DNA of 32,972 nt, taken from IMG/VR virus record IMGVR_UViG_3300042462_000011, positions 1 through 32,972 of that record. One strand, 5' to 3'. A program made the translations under genes and the position numbers. The DNA is from a virus. Under the pieces are notes generated by a model. That model was given only the letters and a program-made list of their open reading frames with translations. It had not been told where the DNA came from and did not search any database. This document shows positions 2,907 through 21,824 of this stretch, piece by piece (within the stretch, counting starts at the first letter, position 1; the number at the start of each line of letters is the position of its first letter).

Positions 2907-5075
2907 TCAAGGTTGCCCAGCTTTACGCTTGAGCAGTTCTTCCATTGCTTTAACTGCGTTCTCTTTGTTGATGCCACGCAACTCTTCGGCCTTCTCTGCA
3001 AGCAATTCTACTGCCCGTCTTGCTGCGCCGCCCCTCGCGATATCCACACCAGTTTGCATGGCTTCAGAGACTTGGCCTTTCAGCGAGGTCTGTGCGGCGG
3101 CGCCAAACATACGATCAAGTTCATTCACAAAGATGAGCTGATTGACGATGTTGTCATCCAGCTTCATGCCGTATTTTGTTGCCGTGCTGTTGGCCTGGTC
3201 AAGCGAATCAATCAGATTTGCCCGTGTGCCATAGTTGCTGGTTAACTTTCGCATCGCTGTGCCAAGCTGCTTGTTTGCGCTTGGAGAATCAAAGTCGATG
3301 TTTGTGCCAGCAGCTTTTTGCAAATCATCCAGCGCCGTGATGGTGTCCGAATACTTTGTATTTGCGGCCTTGTAATCAGGGAAACTTTCGCCAAGGGTTG
3401 CATTCAAGTTTCGGCGCAATGTCTTCAGTGTTCGCTCGGCCTGTGCTGTCAGTGGGTTTGCGAGACTTCTTTTACCAAAATCTACTTGCGTGTCAATAAA
3501 ACGCTTGGCTGTATGGATGCCATAAGCATCGGGCGCTTTAACCGTGCTCAAACGCTCCAGAACCATGTTTAAGACACGTTGAGCCTGCCTGTCTCCCTGT
3601 ATATCAGAACCCTGCAAATTGGCCTTGGCGACCCCGTTTGCGTCAAGCTCTACCTTTACGCCCAAAGTGCCAAGATCATCAAGGAAAGTATTGATGGCAG
3701 GGTCAAAATTTACGGTCTGACCACGCAGTTGGTTGTTGGCGATTTTGTTGATGTCAGCACCAGCTTGCTTGTTCGCAGTGGACAGAAACTGAATCCTTGA
3801 ATCAACGGTATCGCCCAAGATGTCAGCGGGTCGGTTCAATGCCCGAAATGCCTCACGCTTTTCACCCATCTTGAAGATGTTGAGCATCTTGGTCATGGCC
3901 TGACGGTCTTTGTCAGATGCAGCCTTGATGCTGGCAATCGTGCCATCCTTCCAGCCCTGCGTGATCGCAGATGTGGCCTCGTTGTCAGGCACAGCTTGAG
4001 TGCCTGAGATGCGGAAGTTCACCAGTTCTGTCGAATCAGGATTCTGGGCAATCTGCTTGCGTAAGTTCGCCGAGTCTTGTGGTGACAACTTTTCGCCCAC
4101 AGTGGCCTTGATGCTTTGCAGCGACTCTCTGATTGTTGGCTCGGTAGGCGGCTCAACCCCAGCACGCAGTTGCTCAATGCTGGTTGGCTCAATACGCTCA
4201 CGGATGCCAGCACCAGCAGGGGCAACTTGTCGAGCCACTTGTTGCGTCACGGCCCTTGTAGCAGCCGGAATAGATGGCACTAAAGCGCCGCCCACTGTTG
4301 CCGCAATCTGACCAACAGGGCCAGCGCCAGCTTCTTTGGCGACCCCACCAGCAGCCGCCGCAGTTCCACCAGCAAGTGCTTGGAATCCTGGGGTAGCAGC
4401 CAGCAACCTTCCTACTTCTCTTGTAACTGCGCTGCCTTGTTCTGCCAAAGAACTTGGTTTTACTGGTGCTCTAGCCGCGGCTTGCAACGCTTGACCAGCA
4501 GCAACGCCACCAATTGCGCCGCTTGCGCCCGCTGCTGTCGTTTGCATGATGCGCTCGGCTGCTGTGCGAGGTTCGGCTACTCCAACTCGGGTTAGCAAGT
4601 CTTCCATCGCATCGGTTGGTAATGTGTATTTTGTGCCGAATAGACTGTTGACTGAACCAACAATAGGGTCGCCAATCAAACCAGCAAGGGTTGCTGCACC
4701 AGCGCCAGCAATGGCCCCAGGAATTGCACCAACACCGCCAAGCAAAGCGCCAGCAGCACCGCCAGCAAGCGCACCAGCAGCGGGTAGTGCCAAGCCCCTT
4801 GTGGCTGCACCAGCAAGACCTTTTACTGTGGTTGGTGGCTCTGTAATCGTGCCGCCAAACTGTGCAGCAAGCGAGGCAACATCTGTCGCAGCGGCTGGCA
4901 TACTTCTGTCTTGCGGTGTCTCAGGCGGTGCTGTCATTTCAGCACCAGGGAACCGAACATCAACAGCAACGTTTTTTCCGGCATCCGTCTGCACGATAAA
5001 TGTTTGAGCATTGGCTGGCGCAACTGTGCCGCCGAATTGCTTTGCTAGTGCTTCAAGTTCTGCTGGGTCGATCAT
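2907..5075 (-). CDS. Internal virion / DNA ejection protein (large)
   Basis: A 722-residue protein, last of three consecutive genes in the P22 gp7-gp20-gp16 position, predicted to be packaged in the capsid and ejected to form a DNA conduit. A short motif occurs twice near the N-terminus (LAKQFGGTV at 10-18, LAAQFGGTI at 69-77). Residues 88-205 are strongly Ala/Gly-rich and hydrophobic (GLAGAATRGLALPAAG onward), compatible with membrane insertion. The remainder is helical and charged. No lytic transglycosylase motif was seen. Its ATG at 5075 overlaps the upstream stop by four bases. Confidence 0.7.
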   Translation of the reverse strand: MIDPAELEALAKQFGGTVAPANAQTFIVQTDAGKNVAVDVRFPGAEMTAPPETPQDRSMPAAATDVASLAAQFGGTITEPPTTVKGLAGAATRGLALPAAGALAGGAAGALLGGVGAIPGAIAGAGAATLAGLIGDPIVGSVNSLFGTKYTLPTDAMEDLLTRVGVAEPRTAAERIMQTTAAGASGAIGGVAAGQALQAAARAPVKPSSLAEQGSAVTREVGRLLAATPGFQALAGGTAAAAGGVAKEAGAGPVGQIAATVGGALVPSIPAATRAVTQQVARQVAPAGAGIRERIEPTSIEQLRAGVEPPTEPTIRESLQSIKATVGEKLSPQDSANLRKQIAQNPDSTELVNFRISGTQAVPDNEATSAITQGWKDGTIASIKAASDKDRQAMTKMLNIFKMGEKREAFRALNRPADILGDTVDSRIQFLSTANKQAGADINKIANNQLRGQTVNFDPAINTFLDDLGTLGVKVELDANGVAKANLQGSDIQGDRQAQRVLNMVLERLSTVKAPDAYGIHTAKRFIDTQVDFGKRSLANPLTAQAERTLKTLRRNLNATLGESFPDYKAANTKYSDTITALDDLQKAAGTNIDFDSPSANKQLGTAMRKLTSNYGTRANLIDSLDQANSTATKYGMKLDDNIVNQLIFVNELDRMFGAAAQTSLKGQVSEAMQTGVDIARGGAARRAVELLAEKAEELRGINKENAVKAMEELLKRKAGQP

Positions 5076-6490
5076 TGGATACCCGCCGCTTTCTTGTAGG
5101 CATCAGCAGCAGCCTTGCTTGGGAAAGTTGCTGTTGCACCGTTTGGCAATCTGACAGTCAGACCCTCGGCTGGCACATCTCTGGGTGTTGATGGCAAACC
5201 AGCACGTTCTGCCGCAGTAGCACGACCCTTTTCCAGCAAGCGCATGGCTTCAGTAACGCTCTTTTTAAGTTGATCTGGTGATTGCTTCAGACTCAAATTT
5301 TGCAAAGATGCTTGCAGTTTGTCGCCCTCTTTTTCAGACAAAGCGCCAGAACCTTTCATCTTTGGAATCTGCGCCAAAAACGCCTGAGAACCAAGGGTTT
5401 CGACCAGTGCCTCAAAATCGGCAACAGCCTGACTTGCTGTTGGCAATCGTGATGCAATCGGGCCTGTTGCTGATCGAATTACTTCGATTGGCGTATTTAG
5501 GATTTGTGTTCCTGTATTCAAAAAGTTATCAATATCAGACTGTACGGTTGCCAAAGTTGCTTGCTGTTCTCGTTTAGCCGAGTCACGCTTTTCGGTTGCG
5601 TCATCAATCTTTTGCTGCAACTCTTGTTTCCTAAGTACGTTTGTTTCTCGGGCAATGGTTGCGTTCAATGCTTTGATGCGGTTGTCTTCTTTTGCAATTA
5701 AGATGTCAGCATCTGTTTTACGAATATCTGCACGAGTTTTTTCTAAATCAGTTTTGGCTTTTTCTTCAGCAAACAGAGCCTCAACTTTTGCTTTGTCAGC
5801 TTGTGCTTGTGCCAGCTTATTTTCTGCCTCGGCTCTTTTAACGTCATCTGCCGCTGTCGCAACAGCATTTAATGCCTTCTGTTCTTCTTGTGTGGCTTTT
5901 CCCAAAGCCTCTTGCAGTTTTGCCGGGGCAAGTGCTTCTTCTCTTTGCGTAGACAGTGCTTTGTCTGCGTTTTCAAGAAACTCTTTTCCACCAGGAAGTG
6001 CTGCAAGCGTCAGTGCAATAGTGGTTTGTGCGCCTGTCGGATTCATGCGGATCAGATTTGAAAGGTCATCAAAACCTTGCGCCTCTTTTTCTTTTCCGGC
6101 TTCTCGTAATGCTTTTGCTCGCTCAGTAAGACGCATTTCAGCAACAGGTAAATTACCCGACTTGATAGCCGTGTATACCTGTGTGCCTTCCTTCAAAGTG
6201 TTTTGCTGCTGCTCTTTGGTCTGCGCTTCAAAACCTGTTTGGACAATAGCCGCTTGATCTTTTGGCAAAAATGCAGTGACCCGTGCGTAATCTGCTGCTG
6301 TTGCGTTGGGGTTTTTGAACAGGTCTCTGAGAGCTGTTTGGTTTAGTGCGGCTTGCTCGCGTGCCTCAGTTTGTGCTCGAATTTCAGCCCCGGCTTGGCC
6401 AATTTTAAATCCGCTAAGTGCAGCTTCAAATGGACTTTGTACATCAACAGCGTAGTTGATTGGGCCTTGGAATGGGTTAATCTGTGCCAT
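5072..6490 (-). CDS. Ejection protein, coiled-coil rich
   Basis: A 472-residue protein in the P22 gp20 position. Residues about 185-310 are dense in Ala, Glu, Lys and Gln with heptad character (KAKVEALFAEEKAKTDLEK), indicating long coiled coils. The C-terminus ends in a short LPNGATATFPSKAAADAY segment seen on other phage internal virion proteins. ATG at 6490 follows AAGGA. Probably a component of the ejected DNA-translocation channel. The family assignment rests on gene order and composition rather than a diagnostic motif. Confidence 0.65.
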   Translation of the reverse strand: MAQINPFQGPINYAVDVQSPFEAALSGFKIGQAGAEIRAQTEAREQAALNQTALRDLFKNPNATAADYARVTAFLPKDQAAIVQTGFEAQTKEQQQNTLKEGTQVYTAIKSGNLPVAEMRLTERAKALREAGKEKEAQGFDDLSNLIRMNPTGAQTTIALTLAALPGGKEFLENADKALSTQREEALAPAKLQEALGKATQEEQKALNAVATAADDVKRAEAENKLAQAQADKAKVEALFAEEKAKTDLEKTRADIRKTDADILIAKEDNRIKALNATIARETNVLRKQELQQKIDDATEKRDSAKREQQATLATVQSDIDNFLNTGTQILNTPIEVIRSATGPIASRLPTASQAVADFEALVETLGSQAFLAQIPKMKGSGALSEKEGDKLQASLQNLSLKQSPDQLKKSVTEAMRLLEKGRATAAERAGLPSTPRDVPAEGLTVRLPNGATATFPSKAAADAYKKAAGIQ

Positions 6491-6500
6491 GTGTTATTCC

Positions 6501-7151
6501 TTAAAACCCAAATCCCATGCCAGCTTTGCCGCCAGCACCAATTTGCATACCGAGAAACTGGGCTGGCATATTCAAGACTTGACCGTAGGCTTTTGCTTGT
6601 CCAAGTTCGCCACCTGCAAGGGCTGAACCTTGCTGACTCAAGAGATTCGCAATGTTTGTGCCTGTCTCCATACCAGCAGCGCCAACACCAGCCGCAGAGC
6701 GTTGGCCCAATTGCGTCATGCCGCCCAAGCGTCCATATTGTTCTTCAATCAATTGATTCAACACTTGTGGCCGGAACTGCGCCAGTGCTTGTTGCACGTT
6801 ACCGCCACGCAATCCACCAGTGGCTGATGCTCGAGACAAAATAGCCTCTTCGCCTTGCCGTGTTAGCTCTTGAAAACGCTCGCCGCCGCTTATGCGTTCA
6901 ATGGCTGCACGCTCGGCTTCTGGGCCTTGCAAACCAAGAAACGCTTGCTGCTGTTCCAATGCTGGTAAACCTGCCTCGGTGTAAGGCTTCAGCAGGGCTT
7001 GCAAAGAATCAAATTGCCTGCGCTGTTCTGATATGCCTTCTCCGGCTGCGCCAGCTTGGATGTTTGCTGCATCTTCAGCCGCGCCTGCTTGCATTACACT
7101 TCCAACAAGTTGGCTTCCGCCTACGACTAGGGCTGTTACTGGATCAGGCAT
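6501..7151 (-). CDS. DNA transfer / ejection protein (P22 gp7 position)
   Basis: A 216-residue Ala/Gly/Gln-rich protein resembling the proteins commonly annotated as DNA transfer protein p32. It has an N-terminal hydrophobic stretch (ALVVGGSQLVGSVMQAGAA), then a helical region with SEQRRQFDSLQALLKPY and LSRASATGGLRGGNVQQAL, and a Gly/Met-rich tail. It is the first of the three ejection genes; its start overlaps the upstream stop by eight bases. Predicted to be injected ahead of the DNA. Confidence 0.7.
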   Translation of the reverse strand: MPDPVTALVVGGSQLVGSVMQAGAAEDAANIQAGAAGEGISEQRRQFDSLQALLKPYTEAGLPALEQQQAFLGLQGPEAERAAIERISGGERFQELTRQGEEAILSRASATGGLRGGNVQQALAQFRPQVLNQLIEEQYGRLGGMTQLGQRSAAGVGAAGMETGTNIANLLSQQGSALAGGELGQAKAYGQVLNMPAQFLGMQIGAGGKAGMGFGF

Positions 7152-7587
7152 CGCCGAACTCCTTTAAATAATTTTCAAGTTTTTCACCGTACAAAGCCAT
7201 TACTAAATGACTGTGCTTTGTAGCAAACCCTGCACCATGCACTAATGCAATAACCATCAAAATCAGGTCATAGTAGCCAGCACGCCAAACAAACGATTTT
7301 GCATCGGCTTGGCCTTGACGTTCTGCTGTGTCTGAGGCTTGCCACTTAAGAATGGCAGTAGCCAGCAAAGGCACTAAATGGTGGCTATTGACGATGAAAA
7401 AAGCGTTCTGGTGCATACCCACCAGAGTGTTCCAAATGGTGGCATTTAGGTCTTTTCGCTCAACTGCGTCACCATCGGCAACATCATCAAAAACTTGGAT
7501 TGCGTCAAAAACCATAAGCAGCCACTCTACGGCTGGCGTAGGCAGCATAAAAACCTTCGTTAGGTTTTCTTTAAGCCCATCGGTCAT
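7144..7587 (-). CDS. Conserved phage protein of unknown function
   Basis: A 147-residue protein with hydrophobic helices around residues 12-30 (PTPAVEWLLMVFDAIQVF), 55-70 and 105-125, and several His/Trp residues (NSHHLVPLL, KHSHLVMAL). I do not recognise a domain. It lies immediately before the ejection genes and overlaps the first by eight bases, so a role in virion assembly is plausible. I chose ATG 7587 because AGGAG lies six bases upstream; a TTG six bases earlier has no such support. Confidence 0.7.
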   Translation of the reverse strand: MTDGLKENLTKVFMLPTPAVEWLLMVFDAIQVFDDVADGDAVERKDLNATIWNTLVGMHQNAFFIVNSHHLVPLLATAILKWQASDTAERQGQADAKSFVWRAGYYDLILMVIALVHGAGFATKHSHLVMALYGEKLENYLKEFGDA

Positions 7588-7659
7588 GCACAACTCCTGT
7601 TCAGGGTGAGCTGCTGGTGGCCCGATAGACTCAGCGGCTCGATTTTCGCACAGTTTTAC

Positions 7660-8055
7660 TCAATCCTCATACTCATCGTCTTCCCATGCTTGGCAAACTC
7701 TCATGTCATTGCAGATGAAATTCAGCTTTTCGCAGTGGCCACGAAACCCTGCGCCTTTGTCATAAGCCGCCATCGGGATGCGCTCTAGCCGGACTTGCGC
7801 CATCAGGCTGTTGTCGTAGTAACCGCAGTTTGAGCAATGCTTGCGCCGTGCGTCTTTTTCATCGCACTGCATGGCTTCTGCCAGCCCTGAATAAAACTCT
7901 TTGTTGGCCCCAGGTGCGTTAGTTGGCATCTCTGGGCCATAGTTCCAATCCTGTACGGCAATGGCGTAGTTCTTTTTATTTTCTGCATTGGTGATGAATT
8001 CTTCATCCATCGGCAAGCCCATGAATCCCTTGGGCATCATCATAAATTTGTCCAT
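7660..8055 (-). CDS. Cys-rich protein with HiPIP-like cysteine pattern
   Basis: A 131-residue protein. Cysteines sit at 64, 74, 77, 108, 115 and 121. The C-terminal half (HCSNCGYYDN ... GHCEKLNFICNDMRVCQAW) resembles the arrangement of high-potential iron-sulfur proteins: CxxC, later a single Cys, then Cys-x-Ala-Trp. The spacing between the CxxC and the third Cys is longer than usual. The N-terminus is Met-rich. It may bind an Fe-S cluster or zinc. ATG at 8055 has a strong AAGGAGAA site. Its place among virion genes suggests a structural or assembly role; both cofactor and function are inferred. Confidence 0.65.
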   Translation of the reverse strand: MDKFMMMPKGFMGLPMDEEFITNAENKKNYAIAVQDWNYGPEMPTNAPGANKEFYSGLAEAMQCDEKDARRKHCSNCGYYDNSLMAQVRLERIPMAAYDKGAGFRGHCEKLNFICNDMRVCQAWEDDEYED

Positions 8056-18302: not shown

Positions 18303-19529
18303 CTACCATTTGTTAATGGTCGGCAATGGCGTGAAGTTGATCGTCTTGGTCACTGTTGCACGCCTGACACCCTCGCAAGCATATCGCAGTGCGTCAATCA
18401 CATGGTTCTTCTTGTCCTCCAGCACGGGCAAGATTCTACCCGTCAGCGGGTCTGACTTGTAGCTGTAAAGGCTCAGTTCGTCAATGGTGTGTATACAGCG
18501 AGGGTGAACCACGATGTCGTAGTTCTTAAGAAACTCAATGCCTTCCTCGACAGACTTTGGCCCTTTTACGGCAGTCATAATCTTGGGAAAGCCGTTGCGC
18601 TTCATGTGGCTGATGGTCTCGGGCCTAGCTGAATCTGCCACGATGGGCCAGCGTTCGCTCTCAGGCACTTGCATGAACAGCTCGGGCGTGTTGATGATTT
18701 CACACCCAACCATGTAGGCTTCATAGTCAATGAACAGCGTGCGCCCAATGATATGGCAGCGCACCAGCACTGTCGGGTCAATCGAAAAGCCCCAATCAGC
18801 GCCAAGTCGGTGGATGGCATCTGGTGGTGCTTCAAAGTCGTCAATCTTCCAGTTCTTGAACACCCTGGCGTTGCTGTTCCGCAGATACTGACCCATCCAC
18901 ACGTGCTGGTATTTGTCAGGGTCACGCCGCTTGTCGTACTCCATCTCATCTTTAAGGACTTGTGGAAACCACGGGTTTTCGCCAAAGTTGACCTTGATGA
19001 CCTTGGCATCCACAGGCGGCTCTGGGCCTCTTAACAGGAAATCTACAGGGTCGCTCTGCTGTCTCGGGTTCCACGTAAACCATAGTTCACTGTCAGGCTT
19101 GCGGATGGTTGGCCTCAGCAGGTCAAGGCTGGACTGACTTAGGCTTTGGGCTTCCTCCACCCAGGCGCAGTCGTAGCCTTCCAGCGACTTAATGCTGTCG
19201 GCTGTGTGGTTCTGCATACCCTGAAAGATTATGGCCCCATCGCCCTTCTTGGACTTGATGACCGAATCCTGGACTTCAAAGTAAGCGCCAGCGTTCATGG
19301 CCTCAATCTTGGTTTCCAGCAGCCGCTTTACCGATTGGTTCAAGGATTTCTGGATTTCACGCACGCAAACGCTGCGCCGCTTCTGATCCATGATGTGCAT
19401 CTCAATCATCAGCTCGGCAAACATATGCGACTTGCCTGATCCACGCCCACCCCAAGCGCCTTTGTAGCGTGCCGACTCCAGCAAGGGTTGCGCCCATTCT
19501 GGTGTCTGAAGCTGCAAAACTTTATGCAT
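18303..19529 (-). CDS. terL: Terminase large subunit
   Basis: A 408-residue ATPase-nuclease that packages DNA into the procapsid. Walker A GGRGSGKS is at 27-34; Walker B with catalytic acids is in CAWVEEA (121-127); the coupling motif WFTWNP is at 150-155. The RNase-H-like nuclease has acids in GADWGFS (Asp245), ADSARPE (Asp299) and HVIDALRYA (Asp379). The arrangement matches the Terminase_3/3C families used by headful-packaging phages. The start overlaps the terS stop by eight bases. Confidence 0.95.
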   Translation of the reverse strand: MHKVLQLQTPEWAQPLLESARYKGAWGGRGSGKSHMFAELMIEMHIMDQKRRSVCVREIQKSLNQSVKRLLETKIEAMNAGAYFEVQDSVIKSKKGDGAIIFQGMQNHTADSIKSLEGYDCAWVEEAQSLSQSSLDLLRPTIRKPDSELWFTWNPRQQSDPVDFLLRGPEPPVDAKVIKVNFGENPWFPQVLKDEMEYDKRRDPDKYQHVWMGQYLRNSNARVFKNWKIDDFEAPPDAIHRLGADWGFSIDPTVLVRCHIIGRTLFIDYEAYMVGCEIINTPELFMQVPESERWPIVADSARPETISHMKRNGFPKIMTAVKGPKSVEEGIEFLKNYDIVVHPRCIHTIDELSLYSYKSDPLTGRILPVLEDKKNHVIDALRYACEGVRRATVTKTINFTPLPTINKW

Positions 19530-19956
19530 GTTTGACGATTACACGTTCAATCTTGGTGAATTCAAGCGGCTGTCCATCAGCGCCTGTAAGTTCGTGTTTG
19601 TGGGTTTCCTTCCAGCCCATCTGGCACTTTGACCACCAAATCTGTGCAGTGGTATCACCAGCCATTGCTTTTTGGAATATGCCCTTGCCAATTTGTGCGT
19701 TTGCTTTGGCTTTACCGTTCACCAATTCTGCGCTGAAGTATTTTCGTAGCGTGTCAATGTCAATGCCCTCGCGAACAAGGGCTGCAATCTGCTCAAATGG
19801 CACGCCATAACCAGACATTGCTTCAACTTGTTTGCGCTCCGAATCTGTCGGTAAAAATGGCTTTCTGCCAGAACCCTCTCTGGCTCCGCCATTCTTTTTA
19901 GGCTCATCTGCCTCTTTTTTAGGCAGTCGGGTGGAATTTTCAGTACTTTTCTTCAT
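19522..19956 (-). CDS. terS: Terminase small subunit
   Basis: A 144-residue protein immediately upstream of terL. A basic, Gly-rich N-terminus (GGAREGSGRKPFLPT) precedes a helix-turn-helix-like region (QVEAMSGYGVPFEQIAALVR, then IDIDTLRKYFSAEL), the usual DNA-recognition module. The rest (KANAQIGKGIFQKAMAGDTT, AQIWWSKCQMGWKE) is typical of small terminases. Expected to recognise the packaging site and stimulate TerL. GGAGG lies six bases upstream of ATG 19956. Confidence 0.88.
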   Translation of the reverse strand: MKKSTENSTRLPKKEADEPKKNGGAREGSGRKPFLPTDSERKQVEAMSGYGVPFEQIAALVREGIDIDTLRKYFSAELVNGKAKANAQIGKGIFQKAMAGDTTAQIWWSKCQMGWKETHKHELTGADGQPLEFTKIERVIVKHA

Positions 19957-19989: not shown

Positions 19990-20895
19990 TTACTTGACTG
20001 TGCTTGTAATGCGTGACAGCAGCCTTGGCTTGCGATGCTCCTCACTCAGTATCTTGGGCGCAGTGTGCTTCCATGATACTTGATGGTGTATTCGCTTGTC
20101 GTTTGTGCCTACTTCTGAGATTTTTACACACGATGGTGCGTACATAACCGAATAGAACGATTTTGTATACGTGCCAAGGTCAAGGTAGATTTCAGTCAAT
20201 CCACCTGCGTTTTGCTGCGTAACGACTTGCTGCAAGCGTAACTGGGGTGTGGTCATGAAAAGGTTGCCACGTCTGCCCCATTCGACATACATGTTCACAT
20301 CCTCGTTGATGCGGCCTATGAACTCTACTGGACGATCTACCCGAAACATAAAAGAATTCATTACCTTGCGGTATATTTCATCTTTTCGCATCTTGCTGAG
20401 TAGAACGCAACCCTCGCCTCCAATGAAGTCACCGCCCTGTGCGAATGCGACCGAATGAAATGGTGTTGTGTCCAAAAACTCTATCAGTGCGACAAGCACA
20501 TCGTCAAGGTTGCCAATCTTGTTTTCGGATGTGATGTATTGCATTTCCTCGTTGGTTGAGTAATCAAACCTTGTGTAATCGTCATCCAGTTGCCAAAAGT
20601 GTGTCAACCCGAGATCTGCCGCAATTTTGAAGCTGATGTTTCTTGCGTACACCACACTGTTGCGTTTCTTGAAGTTATCTCCGCTGTCAGTGGCTTCAAT
20701 AGCCTCTTGTTTGTTGAAAACAATGACAGAGTCTTTGTCGTAAACCTCTTTGTATTTATCAAGCTGTTTGTCTTCATCGTCACAAATCAGGTAAATCTTG
20801 CCTGTATAGCCGCTTTTGCGTAGGGTCTGGTAGGTGTAAACATTGTTTGCCCGCCCATGTGTCAGAATAAAAACAGCAAAGGTCTTAGGCATCAT
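19990..20895 (-). CDS. TET-associated-type glycosyltransferase (TAGT-like)
   Basis: About 300 residues. Numbered from the ATG at 20892, the chain begins KTFAVFILTHGRANNVYTY, a Rossmann-type GT-A start. A metal-binding acid cluster FWQLDDDYTRF has DDD at 103-105. Later GGDFIGGEGCVLL (153-165) and INEDVNMYVEW (195-205) give the expected acceptor-side and second catalytic acids, with basic HHQVSWKHTAPKIL near the end. This matches the phage TET-associated glycosyltransferases, which act on hydroxylated bases in DNA. No TET/JBP oxygenase or C5-methyltransferase is in the window, so the acceptor is unknown. The start (20895 or 20892) overlaps the ParB-like gene. A protein glycosyltransferase role is not excluded. 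Confidence 0.72.
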   Translation of the reverse strand: MMPKTFAVFILTHGRANNVYTYQTLRKSGYTGKIYLICDDEDKQLDKYKEVYDKDSVIVFNKQEAIEATDSGDNFKKRNSVVYARNISFKIAADLGLTHFWQLDDDYTRFDYSTNEEMQYITSENKIGNLDDVLVALIEFLDTTPFHSVAFAQGGDFIGGEGCVLLSKMRKDEIYRKVMNSFMFRVDRPVEFIGRINEDVNMYVEWGRRGNLFMTTPQLRLQQVVTQQNAGGLTEIYLDLGTYTKSFYSVMYAPSCVKISEVGTNDKRIHHQVSWKHTAPKILSEEHRKPRLLSRITSTVK

Positions 20896-21685
20896 GTTCT
20901 TCGCCCTTTTCGCCAGCGTAAACATCACTGATGGCTTGCGAAAGCTTTACGTAACCGTTCGCAATGGCCTTATCAAAGTCAATGATGACCAATGCGCTGT
21001 CTTCCATGAGTTGCTGCAAGTCCGGGTCTGCGTGTGCGTAAAACTCAGCAATTTGCTCAAAGTCGAATCGTATGTGTCTTGCTGCCGCAGCCAGCAAAAA
21101 GTCTTTAACCTCTGACTTTATTTCAGGGTCTTGATAAATTTTTGCCGTTAGCTGTTCATATTTCACTTTGTCGTAAAGTTCATTTACAGCGGGACAATCA
21201 CCGGATGGCGAATAAACAGGGGCATCTATTTTTTTTGTGTACTTACTGTTATCAATTTGTTCATCATCAACATCAGGCAACAAAAGCTCAGAAATTTCCT
21301 CTGGTGTAAAACCAGTTAGGTCAATGTCAAAACCTAGGCCATCAAGCTCTTCTAGCTCAAGGGATAACATTGCATTGTCCCAGTCAGCATTTTGGGCAAG
21401 TTTGTTGTCGGCAATGATGTAAGCTCGTTTCTTGGCATCTGACCAGCCTTTTGCCACCATTACAGGCACTTCGGTCATCTTCAGCTTCTGTGCCGCCAGG
21501 GTCCGCCCATGCCCTGCAATGATGCCGCCATCCTCGTCCACCAGCACTGGCGTTGTCCAGCCCCATTCTTTGATGCTTGCAGCAATCTGTGCAACTTGCT
21601 CATCCGAGTGCGTGCGTGCGTTGCGTGCGTAAGGGATTAATTTGTCAATGGCCCACTTTTGAACTTTGTCCGCTGGATTCGTCAT
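20885..21685 (-). CDS. ParB-like N-terminal domain protein
   Basis: A 266-residue protein. Residues 10-95 form a ParB/Srx-type domain: IDKLIPYARNARTHSDEQ, IAASIKEWGWTTPVLVD, and the nucleotide-binding GIIAGHGRTLAA with GHGR at 58-61. In many phages this domain is fused to an adenine methylase, but no methylase motif follows here. Residues 145-255 are a different C-terminal region (RHIRFDFEQIAEFYAHADP, then SALVIIDFDKAIANGYVKL) that I associate with ParB genes paired with TAGT glycosyltransferases. The gene overlaps the glycosyltransferase by 8-11 bases. It could be an NTP-using or DNA-binding partner in base modification or genome marking; inferred. ATG 21685 immediately follows the stop of the small secreted protein, in the same frame. 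Confidence 0.78.
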   Translation of the reverse strand: MTNPADKVQKWAIDKLIPYARNARTHSDEQVAQIAASIKEWGWTTPVLVDEDGGIIAGHGRTLAAQKLKMTEVPVMVAKGWSDAKKRAYIIADNKLAQNADWDNAMLSLELEELDGLGFDIDLTGFTPEEISELLLPDVDDEQIDNSKYTKKIDAPVYSPSGDCPAVNELYDKVKYEQLTAKIYQDPEIKSEVKDFLLAAAARHIRFDFEQIAEFYAHADPDLQQLMEDSALVIIDFDKAIANGYVKLSQAISDVYAGEKGEEHDA

Positions 21686-21814
21686 TCAAAAACCACCATT
21701 GCGAGTTGTGGTGCAAGTGACGCTGCCATCCCAATTTTTTACGCATCTGGTGGTGGTCTGGGCTTGGGCTGCAAAAGACAGCAGCAGGGCTGCGATTGTG
21801 ATTAGGGTTTTCAC
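21686..21814 (-). CDS. Small predicted secreted protein, 42 residues (GTG start)
   Basis: A short gene beginning at GTG 21814 with AAGGAG five bases upstream. The protein starts MKTLITIAALLLSFAAQA, a clear signal peptide (basic start, hydrophobic core, AxA cleavage site before Gln19). The mature part is about 24 residues, Thr-rich, with two cysteines (24 and 34) around KNWDGSVT, which could form a disulfide in the periplasm. Its stop directly abuts the ParB-like ATG. Function unknown; exported mini-proteins of phages often alter the host envelope. Length and GTG start make it easy to miss. Confidence 0.7.
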   Translation of the reverse strand: MKTLITIAALLLSFAAQAQTTTRCVKNWDGSVTCTTTRNGGF

Positions 21815-21824
21815 TGTTACTCCT

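Follow-up and report, generated by a model that had tools for sequence, protein, structure and literature searches.

A ParB-like protein and a TAGT glycosyltransferase next to the phage terminase: a probable DNA-glycosylation cassette

Gene order at the locus and the TAGT glycosyltransferase

The IMG/VR virus record IMGVR_UViG_3300042462_000011, analysed here over its entire 32,972 bases (the window, G000; the record states no genome completeness), carries on its minus strand a gene for a ParB-like protein, followed by a gene for a TET-associated-type glycosyltransferase (TAGT) and then by terS and terL. The frames of the ParB-like protein (266 amino acids; 20885-21685) and of TAGT (300 amino acids; 19990-20892) overlap by 8 nt (20885-20892), with the TAGT start codon ATG at 20892 and the stop codon of the ParB-like gene at 20885-20887, from which we infer translational coupling. 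The right neighbour of the slot held by the pair is the gene for the terminase small subunit TerS (19522-19956; phrog_309, E 6.7e-13), and the large subunit TerL comes next (18303-19529; Pfam Terminase_3, 4.8e-31). A first-pass annotation, made from the letters of this DNA, had described a ParB-like gene joined to a TAGT gene directly before terS, and that arrangement is what we find. Our family-library scans covered 24 distinct window proteins.

TAGT matches Pfam family PF20691 with 124.1 bits against a cut-off of 27.5 (E 9.4e-36, whole protein). Its AlphaFold2 (AF2) model has a predicted local distance difference test score (pLDDT) of 92.3, and Foldseek returned GT-A fold matches from 2.2e-5, among them chondroitin polymerase, TarP/TarS, and N-acetylgalactosamine transferases; family and fold comparison thus bear out the original assignment. 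The DDD motif noted earlier is present at residues 103-105, followed by NED at 196-198 and by a C-terminal extension with conserved GG..Y...GT..K and R-HH motifs. In an alignment of 74 sequences, D104 and D105 are present in 74/74 and D103 in 73/74; D198, K176, and HH269-270 are likewise invariant. By analogy with GT2-like inverting enzymes, D198 is the presumed catalytic base. Comparison of the window with locus L025 gave nonsynonymous/synonymous divergence (dN/dS) of 0.09/2.6 (TAGT) and 0.08/1.3 (ParB-like protein), values that are indicative only, dS being saturated; both genes look to be under purifying selection.

Some loci elsewhere depart from a single plain TAGT gene. Tandem TAGT paralogues stand within one module in L119, L122, L134, L139, L146, and L159, which suggests stepwise addition of more than one sugar. 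In L142 (6498-7901, plus strand), TAGT bears an additional N-terminal P-loop domain of ~180 residues, whose weak matches give a mixed picture.

The C-terminal domain of the ParB-like protein and the spread of the module

The Pfam family ParB_N (PF02195) matches the window's ParB-like protein marginally (27.0 bits against a cut-off of 26.3; E 4.6e-6), and phrog_620 matches strongly across residues 6-250 (E 6.7e-68), in agreement with the name first given to it. The protein divides into a ParB_N/Srx-type domain with the motif GHGR (approximately residues 1-125; 21311-21685), supported by Pfam and by the census of the slot described below, and a helical C-terminal domain (approximately residues 145-266; 20888-21253), detected by the hidden Markov model (HMM) 'parbC' and modelled with AF2 on 20888-21280. 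Directly upstream of the ParB-like gene, a short GTG-start frame (21687-21815, minus strand) was noticed by eye; it resembles a small secreted peptide, with a hydrophobic signal-like start followed by two cysteines.

Four proteins with the C-domain, three of them stand-alone members and the fourth that of the window, were scanned against Pfam, and no family exceeded its cut-off for this domain; phrog_620 was matched by 74 of 75 C-domains. The AF2 model has a confident helical core preceded by a leading segment that is poorly ordered yet conserved. Y14, Y23, and Y81 are invariant in 68 sequences, the first two lying in that leading segment; conserved features of the domain are a YT..I..P.Y segment and an R-H/Y/E/D core. 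Comparison of the model with known structures gave no useful PDB match (best Foldseek E 1.5; VIA best Z 3.0); such a weak or absent match is no proof of a new fold.

When the ParB-like protein is split into ParB_N and a C-terminal part of ~110 residues, the C-terminal part is the constant one at TAGT loci. We assembled 128 loci, non-redundant at 80% TAGT identity and excluding TAGT fragments of at most 200 amino acids (L040, L041); alignment A5 excludes L055 and L070, and A6 excludes L010. The C-domain lies upstream of TAGT in 126 of them, adjacent in 115 and with an insert in 11. One exception, L057, ends at a contig edge; the other, the divergent Vibrio phage L010, is truly without a C-domain. 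L010 retains much of the C-terminal extension of TAGT, and we therefore rejected the idea that this extension is a mere dock for the C-domain. Of the 126 pairs, 107 also gave a ParB_N match. The other 19 consist of 6 at a contig edge, 1 split gene (L154), 1 unmatched long N-terminus (L185), and 11 clear stand-alone C-domain proteins of 128-153 amino acids without ParB_N. In the reverse search with the C-domain, TAGT was present in 80/80 loci among the matches listed (75 + 5), as it was in all 28 annotated phage records with a C-domain.

Divergence points the same way. Across 66 loci, distances correlate with r = 0.62 between C-domain and TAGT and 0.26 between ParB_N and TAGT (bootstrap difference 0.19-0.47); among the 29 loci that carry the common terminase family, the gap narrows (0.56 versus 0.35), and the C-domain-terminase correlation is 0.47. 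ParB_N as the functional partner of TAGT was rejected in view of this poor co-divergence and of the 11 pairs that lack it. The module proposed at the outset accordingly holds as a pairing, with the qualification that its constant partner is the C-terminal domain, ParB_N being optional and exchangeable.

Losses of the module were also found. The Lactobacillus delbrueckii phages Ld25A, Ld17, and LL-Ku carry three different deletions, each of which takes the C-domain and part of TAGT, whereas c5 and phiLdb carry the module. Their flanks are 93-95% identical to phage c5 at the nucleotide level, except in the 66-base left flank of Ld17, where identity is 80%; the module is therefore dispensable in some hosts. 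The deletions bear on the view that the ParB-like protein serves in partition or DNA binding and so stabilises a prophage or plasmid form, with TAGT an unrelated passenger. The ParB_N domain itself and the common annotation of relatives as partition proteins would suit that view. Nevertheless, the Pfam scan of the protein found no ParB DNA-binding or helix-turn-helix family at E 0.1, the stand-alone C-domain partners do without ParB_N, co-divergence with TAGT is seen for the C-domain and not for ParB_N, and each deletion removed the C-domain jointly with part of TAGT. We regard this explanation as very improbable.

The pair is widely distributed. In an annotated phage collection, 37 records match TAGT, 33 of them across at least 80% of its length, and the order ParB-like gene, TAGT gene, terminase recurs in Salmonella phage SPF_0923, a human-gut phage, Nocardia phage NTR1, Lactobacillus phages phi jlb1 and c5, and Porphyromonas. 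The archaeal virus HHTV-2 differs in having eight genes between TAGT and the terminase. Scans of IMG/VR and GTDB yielded 31, at least 80, and 44 loci, and the plasmid collection gave no TAGT match. Carriers of the module have terminases of several clusters and include a T4-like Vibrio phage as well as an archaeal virus. The recurrence of the gene order across phages, many IMG/VR contigs, and bacterial genomes speaks against a chance arrangement and answers the earlier concern that related phages might lack the pair. No ParB-TAGT or C-domain-TAGT pair is named in the passages that we consulted from open-licence papers.

Escherichia coli carries a homologue in the same order before the terminase, consisting of ynaK, known from Rac-type prophages, and a gene named hypothetical or 'GREB1-related' (RefSeq gives 'GREB1-related protein' for 2 of the 12 E. 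coli rows listed). Among 5,426 complete E. coli genomes, 1,572 match the pair, 885 of them over 80% or more of its length at the DNA level, a count that does not consider intactness. In the Rac stretch of K-12 MG1655 that we compared, a truncated ParB_N (ynaK) is all that is left. At locus L318 (E. coli ATCC 8739; 6001-7714) the module is present, with ynaK annotated as an incomplete pseudogene and the TAGT frame as an ordinary coding sequence.

Stand-alone C-domain genes with TAGT also lie amid replication genes, in the Vibrio phage pv27 as annotated and in L130, L136, L144, L145, and L159 as judged by eye (the clamp, polymerase, and primase labels in these five were assigned by eye). The first-pass annotation had suggested from the proximity of terS that the mark might serve packaging; with the module adjoining replication genes in several other phages, a special link to packaging is unsupported.

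Genes for nucleotide-sugar metabolism or related functions lie within 2.5 kb of TAGT in 32 of the 128 loci, and farther away in 1. Beside or between the C-domain and TAGT genes are UDP-galactopyranose mutase (6 loci), NAD-dependent epimerases (5), histidine-phosphatase/cytidylyltransferase-type proteins (9), radical SAM proteins (7), class I methyltransferase-like proteins (4; a label given below Pfam cut-offs), CofD with a nucleotidyltransferase (1), and a sulfotransferase (1). These neighbours fit a working enzyme with varied donors. In the window, TAGT adjoins terS, and a host sugar donor is presumably used. The same neighbours could suit a role at the host surface or in nucleotide-sugar metabolism, with TAGT modifying a host glycan or teichoic acid for superinfection exclusion or serotype change, as could the Foldseek matches to TarP and TarS; surface-polysaccharide clusters have been described in cyanophages (PMC7824862). 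Against it, TAGT lies time and again beside terminase or replication genes, and phages of Gram-negative, Gram-positive, and archaeal hosts all carry the same module. We regard such a role, too, as very improbable.

Occupants of the slot before the terminase

We surveyed what follows ParB_N in relatives of the window, using three scans that were all seeded from TAGT-linked ParB_N domains; since the seeds are TAGT-linked, the counts, taken among the matches listed, show possible occupants of the slot and not their frequencies. Representatives were checked by Pfam or PHROGs. Seeded with the ParB_N of the window itself, the scan listed 80 contigs, with 79-100% identity among the ParB_N domains listed, and a terminase lay at most 4 kb away in 71 of them. 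The occupant was an N6/N4 methyltransferase in 39, C-domain and TAGT in 26, Mom in 10, and a C5-methyltransferase in 3, with 2 loci at a contig edge. Of the 78 non-edge loci, 52 thus encode a DNA-modifying enzyme of a known type, and the other 26 encode C-domain and TAGT. The first-pass annotation had pointed to methyltransferase genes in the neighbourhood of such pairs as worth a survey; in these relatives, methyltransferases fill the very same slot (39/80 N-type, 3/80 C5).

A set of 80 loci, seeded from a prophage of Clostridia, showed the same pattern, with N-methyltransferases (55), Mom (4), C-domain and TAGT (3), DpdA and Que proteins (3; the 7-deazaguanine genes here being DpdA with QueC or QueD), a C5-methyltransferase (1), and a 5-hydroxymethyldeoxyuridine (5-hmdU) kinase (1). 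The remainder comprised TAGT without C-domain (2), radical-SAM-like proteins (2), loci with none assigned (8), and a contig edge (1); for the radical SAM label, the match in L449 is below cut-off and the protein in L473 was recognised by eye, matched by an unnamed PHROG alone. In an E. coli-seeded set of 79, we found C-domain and TAGT (53), C-domain only (2), methyltransferase (4), ABC-GNAT (3), unassigned (13), and contig edge (4).

Phage ParB_N-methyltransferase fusions show the relation most closely. In the six listed, ParB_N is 81-86% identical to that of the window and occupies the same slot before terS and terL; their effector is a fused N6_N4_Mtase domain, whereas the window has C-domain and TAGT. 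TerL of the window is 98% identical to that of L258 and L263, both of which carry a ParB_N-methyltransferase, and the exchange of effector is therefore recent. Mom (PF25680) and the DpdA/Que 7-deazaguanine systems share the ParB_N type and the slot, but differ in chemistry and have no C-domain. ParB-like proteins are also described in other DNA-modification or modification-dependent systems, namely DpdB of the bacterial Dpd system, DndB, and GmrS (PMC12839542, the source for DpdB and DndB in DNA modification, and PMC4619093). A general slot for DNA modification describes the pre-terminase position better than a link to packaging does.

Three further arrangements were observed in the slot. L417, L425, and L444 form an exception to the slot rule, since the region that follows ParB_N in their proteins has no relation to the DNA-modifying enzymes that we tested; this C-terminal region may resemble DUF4417. 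In L473 (5569-7420, plus strand), the slot holds a 5-hmdU DNA kinase (PF18748, 3.6e-9) followed by the radical-SAM-like protein, likely a separate hypermodification pathway. L243 contains two opposed ParB_N modules on one contig (705-1595, plus strand, and 4486-5049, minus strand), one with C-domain and TAGT and one of a short zinc-ribbon kind before terS and terL; misassembly is possible.

The acceptor base and the proposed cassette

TAGT-type enzymes with other partners provide a point of comparison. For the TAGT of phage T6, activity on phage DNA and a GT-A model have been described (PMC13216743 and PMC13390438). This beta-glucosyl-HMC-alpha-glucosyltransferase belongs to the same PF20691 family (T6 1e-8; window 9.4e-36) and shares the DDD motif. 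Unlike the window gene, T6 ggt adjoins a dCMP hydroxymethylase gene, has no C-domain in the surrounding 17 kb, and is unmatched by an HMM of the window's TAGT subfamily (E 0.09, two-sequence search). The phage TAGT systems associated with TET/JBP oxygenases, reportedly described by Iyer in 2013 and Pyle in 2024, have a glycosyltransferase of the same family, the family name being that of Pfam.

The window was said in the first-pass annotation to lack every such partner. For the hydroxymethylase and C5-methyltransferase this is confirmed, as neither PF00303 (thymidylate synthase/hydroxymethylase) nor PF00145 (C5-methyltransferase) has a match in the window record and the control genomes were positive for both; for TET, neither the window nor any of 51 other records matched Tet_JBP, in a search in which no control genome matched either. 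PF00303 was found in 2 of 31 other records, the T6 control and pv27, and is absent from 29 of the 30 non-control records, many of which are fragments; PF00145 was found in 1 of the 31, the outlier L010. We considered pv27 as a supplier of hydroxymethylcytosine and rejected this, its PF00303 match being annotated as thymidylate synthase. Thus, as far as gene content tells, the module would work without an obvious phage-made hydroxylated pyrimidine. The puzzle of the substrate raised at the outset persists, for with no hydroxymethylase-family gene in the window the acceptor base is unexplained and possibly canonical. Either a host-made or unrecognised modified base is the acceptor, or a canonical base is glycosylated directly.

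We consider it probable that the pair is a DNA-glycosylation cassette in the general phage DNA-modification slot. Because the slot is otherwise held by DNA-modifying enzymes, TAGT most likely glycosylates phage DNA. TAGT would be the catalyst, with a host nucleotide sugar as its donor; its dedicated binding partner would be the C-terminal domain of the ParB-like protein; ParB_N would be an exchangeable adaptor, probably NTP-binding (nucleoside triphosphate), that couples various DNA-modifying enzymes to phage DNA; and the cassette probably shields phage DNA from restriction. We infer DNA as the acceptor, the contact between subunits, the use of NTP, and the anti-restriction role.

Several points weigh against this reading. 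To our knowledge, DNA glycosyltransferases need a hydroxylated acceptor base, and we can name none here. ParB_N relatives without an assigned modification gene make up 8/80 of the Clostridia set and 13/79 of the enterobacterial set, in which L392-L396 lead straight to the terminase and some of the other unassigned loci are truncated relics. The close enterobacterial relatives show no exchange, 53/79 being C-domain and TAGT, and the enterobacterial N-methyltransferase loci L388-L391 have ParB_N merely 48-54% identical to the seed. The near/far contrast in sugar genes is biased, since the families were picked from near TAGT. Finally, the human TAGT-type protein GREB1 is reported to glycosylate protein (cited in PMC10908778 and PMC10446492), with O-GlcNAcylation of the oestrogen receptor as the reported activity (PMC10908778).

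This report, together with the known glycosylation of virion proteins, such as mycobacteriophage capsid and tail-tube proteins (cited in PMC12619734), makes protein glycosylation the main rival. The sugar would then go to a protein of the virion or of the host, or the C-domain would be glycosylated within the pair, on its own invariant tyrosines; the RefSeq name 'GREB1-related protein' for some E. coli members and the Foldseek matches to protein and teichoic-acid glycosyltransferases point in the same direction. Conversely, DNA methyltransferases, Mom, DpdA/Que, and a 5-hmdU kinase occupy the same slot, and the variety of terminase clusters and the presence of the module in a T4-like Vibrio phage and an archaeal virus make a shared virion acceptor look unlikely. 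The alternative of a protein substrate, which the first-pass annotation had left open, is weakened by the shared slot and is retained as a rival that we think unlikely.

Within the DNA-glycosylation reading, a bolder version is possible, and we put it forward tentatively. C-domain and TAGT would form a two-protein enzyme that glycosylates an ordinary, unhydroxylated DNA base in situ, with ParB_N as a general plug-in adaptor and with accessory cassettes that diversify the sugar coat through galactofuranose or through epimerised, sulfated, or methylated sugars. We know of no precedent for in situ glycosylation of an unhydroxylated DNA base; if the acceptor is an unmodified base, this would be new chemistry.

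If the proposal is true, a widespread class of phages glycosylates DNA without the hydroxymethylase or oxygenase thought necessary, and relatives of its cassette sit in prophages of approximately one-sixth of complete E. coli genomes (885/5,426). Natural module-plus and module-minus isolates exist, making the proposal directly testable. It would reveal a new modified nucleoside and give a role to the unnamed C-domain and to ynaK-type genes presently called partition proteins, and the phage ParB_N domain would become a marker for finding unknown DNA-modification enzymes.

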